This document shows positions 21,653-24,931 of a stretch of DNA of 64,000 nucleotides, in pieces. The translations under genes were made by a program, and so were the position numbers. A model generated the notes under the pieces. That model did no database searches. It saw only the letters and a program-made list of their open reading frames with translations, and was not told where the DNA came from. Each line of letters starts with the position of its first letter. The stretch's first letter is position 1. The stretch lies in the NCBI GenBank assembly GCA_018654605.1, contig JABILG010000019.1:24742-88741 (forward strand). The letters run 5' to 3'. The DNA is from a bacterium (lineage in GTDB: Bacteria > Desulfobacterota_D > UBA1144).

Positions 21653-21889
21653 AGTGAATTTTGCTATTACAAAAGAAAAAACTATTAAGACAACTAGTAC
21701 CTTTAACATCACATATGCGTGCGCGTGGTCAGCACCTTTTTCAGCGTTAGGCACTCTTTCAGGATAAGTCAGAACGACATGTCCCTCTTCTGCTTCTTTT
21801 GGAGCTGCTTCAGCAGCAATTTCTTCTTCCGAGCCTAAACTATCTTTAGCTTCAACCTCATTGGTTGCTTCTTCTTTAATTTCACCCAT
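21641..21889 (-). CDS. Small acidic protein with one C-terminal membrane segment
   Basis: I do not recognise this 82-residue protein. Residues 1-35 are rich in Glu and Ala, the middle has HVVLTYPERVPNAEKGADHAHA, and residues 60-79 form one hydrophobic helix (MLKVLVVLIVFSFVIAKF) followed by a four-residue tail. It looks like a tail-anchored or single-span inner-membrane protein with a cytoplasmic acidic head. The biased composition and clean hydrophobic helix argue for a real gene. Against it are the weak ribosome binding site and the 12-base overlap with uvrA. It is transcribed away from the riboswitch region at 21931. Confidence 0.55.
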   Translation of the reverse strand: MGEIKEEATNEVEAKDSLGSEEEIAAEAAPKEAEEGHVVLTYPERVPNAEKGADHAHAYVMLKVLVVLIVFSFVIAKFTSPF

Positions 21890-21930
21890 ACAAAATAATA
21901 ACCTACTGAGTTGCTTATTTAAATATTATA

Positions 21931-21960
21931 TTGATTTTTATTTTATTTCAGTGCTATAAT
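21931..21960 (+). promoter_or_regulatory. Promoter of the riboswitch-led sulfur operon
   Basis: TTGATT (21931-21936) and TATAAT (21955-21960) are separated by 18 bases. The predicted start of transcription, about 21966-21968, coincides with the 5' side of the first riboswitch stem. The RNA would therefore begin almost directly with the aptamer, which supports both calls. Confidence 0.75.
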
Positions 21961-21964
21961 CTAT

Positions 21965-22016
21965 ATGTCGTCATTTAACTCTAATTGCAGCGACATTAAA
22001 TAATTGCTAAATAGGG
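21965..22016 (+). ncRNA. SAM-II (SAM-alpha) riboswitch
   Basis: The 52-base element has the SAM-II plan. Stem P1 is ATGTCG (21965-21970) paired with CGACAT (21991-21996). The loop carries the conserved ATTTAAC and ATTGCAG blocks. Downstream come ATTAAATAA and then GCTAAA and AGGG. The blocks ATTTAA, TTGCA-GCG, TAAA and GCTAAA-AGGG appear in the same order and almost the same spacing as in published SAM-II aptamers, in which SAM binding forms an H-type pseudoknot and hides the AGGG ribosome binding site. The next full gene is a sulfurtransferase, consistent with sulfur amino acid control. SAM-II is mostly known from Alphaproteobacteria and marine metagenomes. Confidence 0.85.
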
Positions 22017-22048
22017 TGAAGACGTTGATCGATGTCTTTCCTCTTTGA
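22016..22048 (+). other. Possible 6- to 10-codon ORF directly behind the riboswitch ribosome binding site
   Basis: The riboswitch ends in AGGG (22013-22016). A TTG eight bases later (22025) or an overlapping GTG (22016), both in the same frame, would open a very short reading frame ending at TGA 22046-22048 (VKTLIDVFPL from the GTG). It lies in frame with the Cys-rich leader and shares V-K-T-L with that peptide's start. It may simply be what is left where a riboswitch-controlled gene once began. Translation is unproven. Confidence 0.3.
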
Positions 22049-22075
22049 GTTACAAAAAATTTTTTGGAGTTTGTT

Positions 22076-22165
22076 ATGGTTAAAACATTATTTGTATTGC
22101 TTGTTAGTGAAGTAGATACATGTTGTTGTAACTTTTCAAACTTATGTTGTTGTAACTACAAGTAG
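22076..22165 (+). CDS. 29-residue cysteine-rich leader peptide (putative cysteine attenuator)
   Basis: An ATG at 22076 preceded by GGAG (22066-22069, six bases away) opens a 29-codon frame ending at TAG 22163-22165. The peptide contains two runs of three consecutive cysteines, each in the context CCCN (residues 16-19 and 24-27), all encoded TGT. Six of 29 residues are Cys. The DNA for the runs is a 14-base direct repeat at 22120-22133 and 22144-22157. Polycysteine leader ORFs in mycobacteria act as cysteine-responsive attenuators in front of sulfur genes, and this one precedes a CysA2-like sulfurtransferase by 69 bases. The function is inferred. The ORF, its ribosome binding site and the Cys runs are seen directly. 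Confidence 0.7.
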   Translation: MVKTLFVLLVSEVDTCCCNFSNLCCCNYK

Positions 22166-22198
22166 TACTAGTTAGTTATAAATTTAAAATTTAATTTT

Positions 22199-22222
22199 TC
22201 TGGTTTTATTAATAAGGCCAGA
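22199..22222 (+). promoter_or_regulatory. Hairpin abutting the sulfurtransferase ribosome binding site
   Basis: TCTGGTTTTA (22199-22208) pairs with TAAGGCCAGA (22213-22222) over ten consecutive pairs, two of them G-U, with a TTAA loop. The GGAGGAA ribosome binding site (22224-22230) starts two bases after the stem, and no T-run follows, so it is not an intrinsic terminator. Stem bases 22203-22208 are also complementary to TAAAAC at 22081-22086 inside the Cys leader, which offers an alternative pairing. A role in translational control of the downstream gene is inferred. Confidence 0.5.
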
Positions 22223-22234
22223 TGGAGGAATAAA

Positions 22235-23077
22235 ATGGCAGAATATAAGAATCCAGAATTGTTAGTTTCAACTGACTGGGTCCTGGAAAATAAAGATAAA
22301 CCAGGAATTAAGGTACTTGAATCTAACGAAGATATTCTTTTGTATGACATAGGTCATATTGAAGGAGCAATAAAAATAGACTGGGAGACAGAGCTTCAAG
22401 ATAATCTTATAAGAGACTATATAGACAAAGATAATTTTGAAAAACTTCTTTCCTCAAAGGGAATTTCACCTGAAGATACAGTTGTTTTCTATGGAGACAA
22501 AAGTAACTGGTGGGCATGTTACGCCTTTTGGACATTTAAAATCTATGGTCATGAGAAATGTATTATAATGAATGGTGGAAGACAAAAGTGGATTGAGGAG
22601 AAAAAGCCACTGTCTAAAGACATACCTTCTCTAGAGAATACAAATTATAAAGTTACTAATGTTAATCTTGGCATTAGAGCATTTAGGGATGAGGTCAAAG
22701 AACATAGCGCTGCTTTAGGAGCTTTAATTGACGTTCGATCACCTAAAGAATTCAGCGGTGAAATGCTTCACATGGAAGCATATCCTCAAGAAGGAGCACT
22801 TAGAGGTGGACATATTCCTAATGCTCAAAGCGTTCCTTGGGCGACTGCAGCAAATGAAGATGGCACATTTAAATCGGCTGACGAGTTAGTTGAGATATAT
22901 CAGAATGGAGCCGGACTAAAACCAGAAGATGATGTTATTGCTTATTGCAGAATAGGCGAGAGATCTTCACATACTTGGTTCGTTCTTACTTATCTGCTGG
23001 GTTACAATAGTGTTAAAAACTATGATGGCTCCTGGACCGAATGGGGCAATCTTGTCCAAGCGCCTATTGAGAAGTAG
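22235..23077 (+). CDS. Sulfurtransferase with two rhodanese domains (CysA2-like)
   Basis: The 280-residue protein has an inactive N-terminal rhodanese domain (about 1-125) and an active C-terminal one (about 145-280). The active-site loop is [12 protein letters not shown], with Cys as sulfur carrier. The CRIGERS loop and the ending [14 protein letters not shown] strongly resemble thiosulfate sulfurtransferases of the mycobacterial CysA2 type rather than mercaptopyruvate enzymes (CGSGVT loop). It has a strong GGAGGAA ribosome binding site five bases from ATG. Upstream lie a SAM-II riboswitch, a polycysteine leader and a hairpin. Eleven bases downstream is a SufU-like scaffold gene, so delivery of sulfane sulfur for Fe-S or cofactor assembly is likely. 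Confidence 0.9.
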
Positions 23078-23581: not shown

Positions 23582-24931
23582 ATGACAAAAAAAAATGGTA
23601 AAGCAAATGGAAAAGTTAATTATGAGGCTGCTTTAAAGTACCCTTTATTTGAAGCTATCTTTAATAGAAGGTCAAGAAGATTTGGGCTAGGAATGGAACT
23701 TCCTTCTGATAGCTCTTTAGGCTATAAATCAAAAATAGATCCTGTTCCATTAACTGAATTTCAAGAAGCAATGTTAGTTTGGGCAGGGACTGGGTTAACT
23801 GGTTTATGTCTAGCAGATTTACCGCCAGAAAATGGGATTGATTTGTTATGCCAGTGGACAAGCAGAACTTGGCCATCAGCATGTAACAATCATGGAACAG
23901 AACTATTTTTCACTAATGATTCTGGTCTTTATTATGTTGACGTTAAACACATGTTGCCAAAAGATAAAGAGTTAGACGTCTTTTTTAGAATGAATGTAAA
24001 TGATAAAATTGACAGATTGCTAGAGTTATACAAAGAAGGATTGGTCAAGCTCGAAGATGGTAGGGCAAACTTACCTGATAAAATGCCAGGACTTTTTGAT
24101 TTTAATCAATGGAATACTAACAAGCCAGGAACGACAACTTTTATTCCTGTTACAGACATAACAGAAGAGTATTTAAACTTGCTGACATTATATTGTAGCA
24201 GTTCTTATGCTTTTAATATTTGGGACGAGAAAAATAACTGTTCTTGTGGACAGGATGAATGGATTGCTTCAGGTCGAATTAAAGAGGATGTTAAAATGTC
24301 ACTTTATGACCTTGAGGTTAGGATTCTTACAGGTCTAAATGTAGAGCAGGCATTTATATGCCAAAACATGTCTTTAGCGCTTCAAGCACTAGGCCTTGGA
24401 GGTTGGACTTTTACGGGTCTGATTCCGAGATTCACTTTGGGATCTAATCCTGAATTATTCAAAGGTCTTGGCTTTAGATTTGAACAGCCCAAATCGGGCC
24501 CTACAAGACCGGTTGGTAAAGATGGTATCTTTGAGGGGTATTGTCCACCTTATTATAAAACAATGTCTGATGCATTTGACAAAATGGATGAGCATAAATG
24601 GGGAGCTTGGGATAGTTCAAAACCCTTTCCTTATAAAGAGCCAGATAAGCATCTAGTCAAAGCTCCAAGACCAACTGATACTACGAATGAAATTGTAAAA
24701 TCTGTTGCCGAATACATTCATAATACTTATGGATCATTCCCTGCTTTTGTAGACCCAATGTATATGAGGCTGGTATTTCAGGCGCATAATTTAGATTTAG
24801 ATTTTTATGACGAATATTATCCACCAGGATCTTATACTGACCAACATATAAATACTTTTAAATATTTTCATCCGGATAAAGAGAATCCATATAAGCAGAA
24901 ACCTGAGAAAAAGCAACCTTGGGACAAATAA
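23582..24931 (+). CDS. Unrecognised protein, nitroreductase-like fold suspected
   Basis: I do not recognise this 449-residue protein. The opening NRRSRRFGLGMEL resembles the RRSxRxF start of flavin nitroreductases, and GLNVEQAFICQNMSLALQALGLGGW resembles their conserved helix near the flavin, so a large nitroreductase-superfamily member is the best guess. Residues 150-260 and the C-terminal 120 residues, rich in Tyr, Pro, His and Lys, have no counterpart I can name. The NNCSCG segment near residue 220 holds two Cys. It has no signal peptide or membrane segment. It follows the sulfurtransferase and SufU-like genes on the same strand, so a link to sulfur or Fe-S metabolism is possible but unproven. 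Confidence 0.6.
   Translation: MTKKNGKANGKVNYEAALKYPLFEAIFNRRSRRFGLGMELPSDSSLGYKSKIDPVPLTEFQEAMLVWAGTGLTGLCLADLPPENGIDLLCQWTSRTWPSACNNHGTELFFTNDSGLYYVDVKHMLPKDKELDVFFRMNVNDKIDRLLELYKEGLVKLEDGRANLPDKMPGLFDFNQWNTNKPGTTTFIPVTDITEEYLNLLTLYCSSSYAFNIWDEKNNCSCGQDEWIASGRIKEDVKMSLYDLEVRILTGLNVEQAFICQNMSLALQALGLGGWTFTGLIPRFTLGSNPELFKGLGFRFEQPKSGPTRPVGKDGIFEGYCPPYYKTMSDAFDKMDEHKWGAWDSSKPFPYKEPDKHLVKAPRPTDTTNEIVKSVAEYIHNTYGSFPAFVDPMYMRLVFQAHNLDLDFYDEYYPPGSYTDQHINTFKYFHPDKENPYKQKPEKKQPWDK

Follow-up and report, generated by a model that had tools for sequence, protein, structure and literature searches.

A SAM-II-type aptamer and a polycysteine leader, apparently wired in series, in front of bacterial sulfur operons

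Introduction

Riboswitches of the SAM-II type have mainly been described from Alphaproteobacteria. Polycysteine leaders were reportedly found by Canestrari et al. in 2020 in front of mycobacterial sulfur genes, a sulfurtransferase operon included. According to the available text of a study on the S. meliloti metA riboswitch, the ribosome binding site of this element also works at a distance from the real start codon (PMC9373788). Runs of Cys codons occur in leaders of mycobacteria and other actinobacteria, as far as the accessible parts of two reports go (PMC1262725, PMC13236596), and surveys of tandem riboswitches describe, in the portions available, SAM-I with a T-box(Met) and SAM-II with SAM-V (PMC9481103). 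Riboswitches and peptide attenuators have usually been studied separately. Here, we analysed a locus of a small-genome bacterium in which the two are apparently wired in series.

Results

The locus and its genes

The window, i.e. the whole stretch of DNA that was analysed, comprises 64,000 nt of contig JABILG010000019.1 (GCA_018654605.1; positions 24,742-88,741, forward strand) with a G+C content of 33.5%. It is part of a 1.02 Mb draft genome (G000, the host), which belongs to a family of 14 genomes of about 0.8-1.1 Mb each in five genera. The class containing this family is taken to be Dadabacteria. Judging from the available text of PMC8115339, the family would fit the streamlined marine pelagic Dadabacteria clade described there, and the host likely has a marine habitat. 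Our comparison set consisted of the 14 family genomes and 43 other genomes of the class.

Table 1 Features of the window, in window coordinates
Feature	Positions	Strand	Basis
Promoter-like -35, TTGATT	21931-21936	+	sequence
Promoter-like -10, TATAAT	21955-21960	+	sequence; 18-nt spacer after -35
SAM-II-type aptamer	21967-22017	+	RF00521 match
Aptamer P1	21971-21967 with 21990-21994	+	paired in 100% of cells, 29 modules
Aptamer pseudoknot P2	21979-21982 with 22013-22016	+	paired in 96.6% of cells, 29 modules
Hairpin P3 of the expression platform	22018-22039	+	covariation across 29 modules
Switch strand CCUCUUUGAGUUACAA	22040-22055	+	alignment, pair counts, folds, duplex tests
Predicted P4, 5' arm (switch strand and leader Shine-Dalgarno)	22040-22074	+	duplex of -16.2 kcal/mol in the window
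Leader Shine-Dalgarno, GGAG	22066-22069	+	sequence; equivalent site in other modules
Leader ORF MVKTLFVLLVSEVDTCCCNFSNLCCCNYK, 29 codons and stop	22076-22165	+	sequence; Cys leaders in 16 operons
Cys-Cys-Cys runs in leader ORF	22121-22129, 22145-22153	+	sequence
Predicted P4, 3' arm (Ser-Asn-Leu-Cys-Cys-Cys-Asn-Tyr-Lys-stop codons)	22137-22166	+	duplex tests, codon choice
Ten-pair hairpin directly 5' of the sulfurtransferase Shine-Dalgarno	22199-22222	+	sequence
Sulfurtransferase Shine-Dalgarno, GGAGG	22224-22228	+	sequence
Rhodanese-type sulfurtransferase, 280 aa	22235-23077	+	PF00581, 3.6e-31
SufU/NifU-like Fe-S assembly protein, 142 aa	23089-23517	+	PF01592, 7.8e-23
449-aa protein after the SufU-like gene	23582-24931		no Pfam/NCBIfam match at 1e-3

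The first enzyme of the operon had originally been called CysA2-like, which is right in a loose sense: Pfam finds rhodanese domains, and the protein scores 100 with the 3-mercaptopyruvate sulfurtransferase model, whose cut-off is 250. Likewise, the SufU-like gene carries the domain expected of it (Table 1) and stays below the cut-off of the SufU model (78.8 against 92.5). A close relative of the 449-aa protein is also encoded downstream in genome G009.

The predicted promoter was recovered with both of its hexamers and its spacer. Taken alone it is weak evidence, because five promoter-like sites were counted in 21850-22300 against 2.7 in shuffles; weaker matches also occur inside the leader region. 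Across the family, a TATAAT-like hexamer (at least 5/6 matches) lies upstream of all 30 SAM-II modules, at 5-8 nt from the aptamer in 27 and at 14 nt in the other three. The predicted transcription start lies at about 21967, so that the transcript would open with the aptamer, which ends 59 bases before the leader start.

The aptamer belongs to the SAM-II type

The Rfam model RF00521 aligned with 21957-22031 at 35.8 bits (E 1.4e-6), i.e. 0.2 bits short of its gathering score of 36, and an Rfam scan at the gathering cut-off misses the aptamer for this reason. The UUGCA/GCUAAA core, P1 and the pseudoknot P2 are all present in the alignment, in which the window aptamer has a loop 3 bases shorter. 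The original prediction of a SAM-II element thus stands, with an intact core and a score narrowly below the cut-off. RF01726 gave 24.2 bits, and SAM_alpha and SAM-II were the only Rfam families that matched in 21880-22300 at E 10, none other being found for the leader hairpins.

Genome-wide (1.02 Mb), the window aptamer ranks first among the RF00521 matches (E 8e-7). In 14 control genomes the model had no match at E 0.01 or E 0.001; at looser cut-offs it matched 4/14 at E 0.5 and 14/14 at E 10. All 14 family genomes matched at E 0.5, and none of the 14 above the gathering cut-off. We also made a model, R1, from 29 family SAM-II modules. R1 matched 14/14 family genomes, as expected because it was built from those modules, and had no match in the 43 other genomes of the class, where RF00521 gave a single weak match at E 0.001 (G049, 26.7 bits). 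GCUAA is kept in 29/29 modules, with A as the sixth base in 27. P1 and P2 are near-invariant and therefore unproven by covariation. The window aptamer is predicted to bind SAM.

Aptamer and leader occur together

The predicted 29-codon ORF with two Cys-Cys-Cys runs is present in the window, and homologous or analogous Cys leaders precede 16 operons in six genomes. Kept in these relatives is a short ORF with a ribosome site and a Cys run near its stop; the run is Cys-Cys-Cys in 15 of the 16 leaders, and the N-terminal portions diverge widely. The exception, locus L004, has lost the platform and the middle Cys of the run as well (CFCG).

We then counted both elements at 35 sulfurtransferase, cysI and SBP56 loci, inspecting 400 bases upstream of each (348 at one contig end). 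Both were present at 15 loci, the leader with a half-deleted aptamer at one, and neither at 19; none of the 35 had an intact aptamer without a leader or an intact leader with the aptamer wholly missing. By gene, both elements precede 6 of the 13 sulfurtransferases (neither at 7), 6 of the 10 cysI genes (neither at 4) and 3 of the 12 SBP56 genes, with the leader and half-deleted aptamer at one SBP56 locus, that of the window's genome, and neither at 8. That aptamer and Cys leader belong together, as had been proposed for the window, is well supported by this joint recurrence before three sulfur operons. The relatives also include cases that speak against the original prediction, namely the 7/13 sulfurtransferase loci with neither element. 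Since both are missing together there, and in other genera, these loci mark where the pair arose more than they refute it.

Beyond the family, polycysteine ORFs precede sulfurtransferases at 6 of 80 named loci, where base shuffles would give 1.75; all six lie 203-365 bases upstream and do not resemble the family leaders, and they were rejected as the same leaders. In Dadabacteria outside the family, a looser criterion gave a Cys ORF at 4/30 loci (from 37 genomes with a match), and no SAM-II-like core was found at these four.

A separate observation concerns genus g2, where a DNA motif, GTTACTTTNTTTATACTACTA, occurs twice per genome with at most two mismatches in G001, G002, G003 and G005 (L236-L243). 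The sites precede the sulfurtransferase and SBP56, and G001 has a third, weaker one; no site was found in G000, G004, G008 and G009. The genes concerned have the RNA pair in g1 and g3, and the motif may be a promoter element or a binding site for a protein. As g2 has the shared motif and no RNA pair, control by RNA may have taken the place of a regulator acting on DNA, or vice versa.

The same module sits on thrC-like starts without a leader

The modules stand upstream of methionine/SAM/sulfur-type genes: thrC-like, sulfurtransferase, cysI and SBP56. The threonine-synthase-like gene reaches 277 bits with TIGR00260, above cut-off, and the cysI product is above cut-off as a sulfite reductase (NF010029). 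The SBP56 gene matches PF05694 at 581 bits and does not reach the methanethiol-oxidase model (115.7 against a cut-off of 650). The genes after cysI are presumably cysD and cysN, which they resemble.

Two further observations were made at these loci. At L002, L138, L141, L142 and L145-L149 the gene next to the thrC-like one encodes a small ThiS-like protein with a Gly-Gly end, perhaps a sign that homocysteine or cysteine is made by way of a sulfur carrier. The loci L126, L102, L115, L003 and L132 have a long AU-rich inverted repeat between the leader stop and cysI (CTAATTTGATAT with ATATCAAATTAG in L126, for example), with no obvious T run following it.

With no leader in between, the module lies right at the threonine-synthase-like start at 14 loci, which cover 13 of the 14 family genomes and all five genera. 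G006 has two such modules and none was found in G012 (77% complete); the G006 loci, L130 and L142, are near-identical and lie near contig ends, i.e. a duplication or an assembly artefact. Operons of both kinds have the order aptamer, P3, CCUCUUxGAGUUACA, Shine-Dalgarno and ATG at near-equal spacing. The start codon of the module is that of the enzyme in the thrC-like operons and that of the leader in the three sulfur operons. Because the same module sits on the thrC-like start, we conclude that in the leader operons it sits on the leader's ribosome site and not on that of the enzyme, which favours an arrangement in series over two switches working independently of each other.

In a tree of 29 modules only 5 of the 26 inner branches are well supported. 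The 15 leader modules share one branch (88/84) with the six thrC modules from their own two genera. Two changes of the leader label are required on the tree; the leader modules may still have a single origin, which appears in 17% of bootstrap trees. In G011 the SBP56 module groups with that genome's own sulfurtransferase module (97/91), and the two leaders (L131/L175 and L128) are near-identical from aptamer through hairpin, which looks like the transfer of a copy of the entire control cassette from one operon to another. The likeliest history would be that a thrC riboswitch was copied onto polycysteine leaders.

A switch strand with three possible partners

P3, the hairpin of the expression platform, is well supported by covariation: 7 of its 9 pairs vary on both sides among the 29 modules, and over the whole module structure 37 cells are double-changed, with 11.6 such cells in shuffles. 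The switch strand behind it has three possible partners, i.e. the 3' strand of P2 (extended P3), the aptamer loop UAACUC and the last codons of the leader (P4). Its CUCU can pair with the P2 3' strand in 97.2% of cells and its GAGUUA with UAACUC in 100%. Extended P3 appears in the printed free folds. The loop pairing has a predicted probability of at most 0.10 in 27/27 modules on free folding; it is disfavoured as a stable SAM-free fold and may be a co-transcriptional possibility only.

The 3' end of the leader is complementary to the leader Shine-Dalgarno and the switch strand, a predicted helix that we call P4. Across the 16 leaders, duplex energies range from -13.0 to -19.4 kcal/mol. They lie below the shuffled-leader mean in 16/16, with p<=0.05 in 11/16 under dinucleotide shuffles and in only 6/16 under codon-order shuffles; in these tests the signal is absent from L132 and L115. 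Over the 16 leaders, the 5' region pairs better with its own leader than under random assignment (p 0.042). Here, two leaders, those of L004, which has the half-deleted aptamer, and of L129, pair best with their own 5' region among all 16, and that of L132 pairs worst with its own. In all 16 leaders the last Cys is followed by AAC (11), AGC (3) or GGC (2), codons that can all pair with GUU; their genome shares are 29% of Asn, 11% of Ser and 15% of Gly codons, respectively. The naive probability of this choice, 3.6e-11, indicates a direction only, because it ignores shared descent. Together, the duplex, own-pairing and codon-choice tests support the prediction that P4 covers the ribosome site of the same leader. 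Among the thrC-like operons, those of genera g2 and g4 have a switch strand that pairs with the first codons of the gene (9 pairs; 5/5 tested rows, shuffle p<=0.025), and in g1, g3 and g5 this signal is not significant.

Folding of the enzyme's ribosome site

The ten-pair hairpin and the ribosome binding site foreseen in front of the sulfurtransferase were both confirmed. A consensus hairpin precedes the enzyme Shine-Dalgarno in 10 sulfurtransferase and SBP56 leaders, with a double change in 3 of 8 pairs. When a stalled ribosome was imposed in folding, just two of the 16 loci showed a rise of at least 0.1 in the openness of the enzyme Shine-Dalgarno. Classical attenuation, in which Cys codons and the post-stop segment, an antisequestor and the Shine-Dalgarno alternate, is therefore not supported. 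With a mimic of the SAM-bound state, openness fell by at least 0.1 in 9/16 loci, the mimic not being meaningful for L004; in the printed folds CCUC pairs with GGAGG, and in several loci the start codon opens simultaneously. The two-input control originally proposed thus holds as to the two elements belonging together, and is refined to a series; a step onto the enzyme's ribosome site was not seen in folding.

Proposed mechanism and alternative explanations

We favour, with moderate confidence, a two-input switch in which the SAM-II module acts on the ribosome site of the Cys ORF and full expression is obtained only when SAM and charged Cys-tRNA are both low. With SAM bound, P2 would form and leave the switch strand to P4, which would shut the leader's ribosome site; the leader would therefore not be translated. 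In the absence of SAM, the switch strand would be engaged by extended P3 or by the aptamer loop, and translation of the leader would proceed. A ribosome paused at the Cys codons for want of Cys-tRNA would then hold P4 open and the enzyme gene would be expressed, whereas one running through them would leave it unexpressed. This stalled-ribosome step is modelled on the mycobacterial polycysteine leaders, and the cysteine response of the leader is proposed by analogy with them. The weakest step is the one that would lead from the stalled ribosome to the enzyme gene. The net effect would be that sulfur supply shuts down when SAM or cysteine is plentiful. A fuller reading is advanced tentatively, as possible rather than probable: a NOR gate in which SAM gates the leader and the Cys codons serve both as Cys-tRNA sensor and as P4 strand, its SAM-II module having been copied from a biosynthetic gene onto polycysteine leaders and having reached three sulfur operons in Dadabacteria.

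The genome encodes Rho (671 bits, above cut-off), and the main rival is therefore a Rho-dependent step, which we regard as unlikely and still deserving of weight. Rho sites would become accessible on leader RNA left untranslated at high SAM or quickly cleared at high cysteine, and a ribosome held on the Cys codons would keep Rho away. In that case SAM and cysteine would both decide whether the transcript is completed, and the point of control would not be the enzyme's ribosome site. This would suit a window without an intrinsic terminator from promoter to gene and an enzyme ribosome site that does not respond to stalling in folding, and Rho has been proposed for terminator-less actinobacterial cys leaders in the accessible part of PMC1262725. 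However, the conserved hairpin beside the enzyme Shine-Dalgarno of sulfurtransferase and SBP56 points to ribosome-site control, and the thrC-like module has no leader.

Less probable still is an input from cysteine alone, with the aptamer a decaying copy of the thrC riboswitch whose remnant just provides the leader's ribosome site. Decay could be read from the sub-cut-off RF00521 scores in 14/14 genomes, from the host cysI copy (GCTAAG for GCTAAA, P2 weak), from the host SBP56 aptamer, which lacks its 3' half while the Cys-rich leader is kept, and from a 4-base insert in the G011 SBP56 copy. Yet the core is unchanged in the window copy and most others (P1 in 29/29, P2 in 96.6% of cells), P3 is kept through compensating changes, and no locus combines an intact leader with a wholly absent aptamer.

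We give equally little credence to an input from SAM alone, in which the Cys-rich peptide would serve metal or persulfide binding or the like, or the Cys codons would be maintained solely for their part in the 3' arm of P4. An RNA-level constraint on the Cys codons does show in P4 and in the choice of the codon that follows the last Cys, and L004, having lost its platform, also lacks the middle Cys. Against this, P4 alone leaves unexplained the first Cys run and the extra Cys codons (10 Cys in the G011 SBP56 leader), and all three operons consist of sulfur genes, like those of known polycysteine attenuators. Attenuation at an intrinsic terminator was rejected for the window, where none was found between promoter and sulfurtransferase.

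Discussion

Our analysis describes what is apparently a new combination of two known devices, wired in series. The original prediction knew of no leader combining SAM-II with polycysteine, and within the available text of the open-licence literature we likewise found no report of a SAM riboswitch joined to a Cys-codon leader. The two inputs would be the end product of the pathway, SAM, and its branch-point amino acid, cysteine. SAM-II-type riboswitches are thereby placed in Dadabacteria.

With the SAM-II riboswitch of S. meliloti metA, as presented in the available text of PMC9373788, the module shares the aptamer core, the pseudoknot and a ribosome binding site just downstream, whose response to SAM is predicted here. 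It differs in that the ORF behind it is a short Cys-rich leader in three operons, in its platform of P3 and CCUCUU-GAGUUACA, and in its host, which is from Dadabacteria and not from Alphaproteobacteria. With the polycysteine leaders of mycobacteria and other actinobacteria, as far as the accessible parts of those reports describe them, the leader has in common that it is a short ORF, precedes sulfur genes and has a run of Cys codons close to the stop. Unlike these, it is not leaderless and has its own Shine-Dalgarno under a riboswitch; its sequence is unrelated and its phylum a different one. uORFC-8-2, which precedes cysS in Rhodobacterales, also has tandem Cys codons in a uORF; unlike the window leader it has an intrinsic terminator and, in the available text of PMC8632094, no riboswitch. 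In its logic the arrangement comes close to SAM-I with T-box(Met), where, according to the portions available of PMC9481103, a SAM sensor and a sensor of tRNA charging likewise share one 5' region with two inputs. In that tandem, reading the tRNA falls to a T-box RNA that has a platform of its own, whereas here we propose that it is read by a translating ribosome whose loading is gated by the riboswitch.
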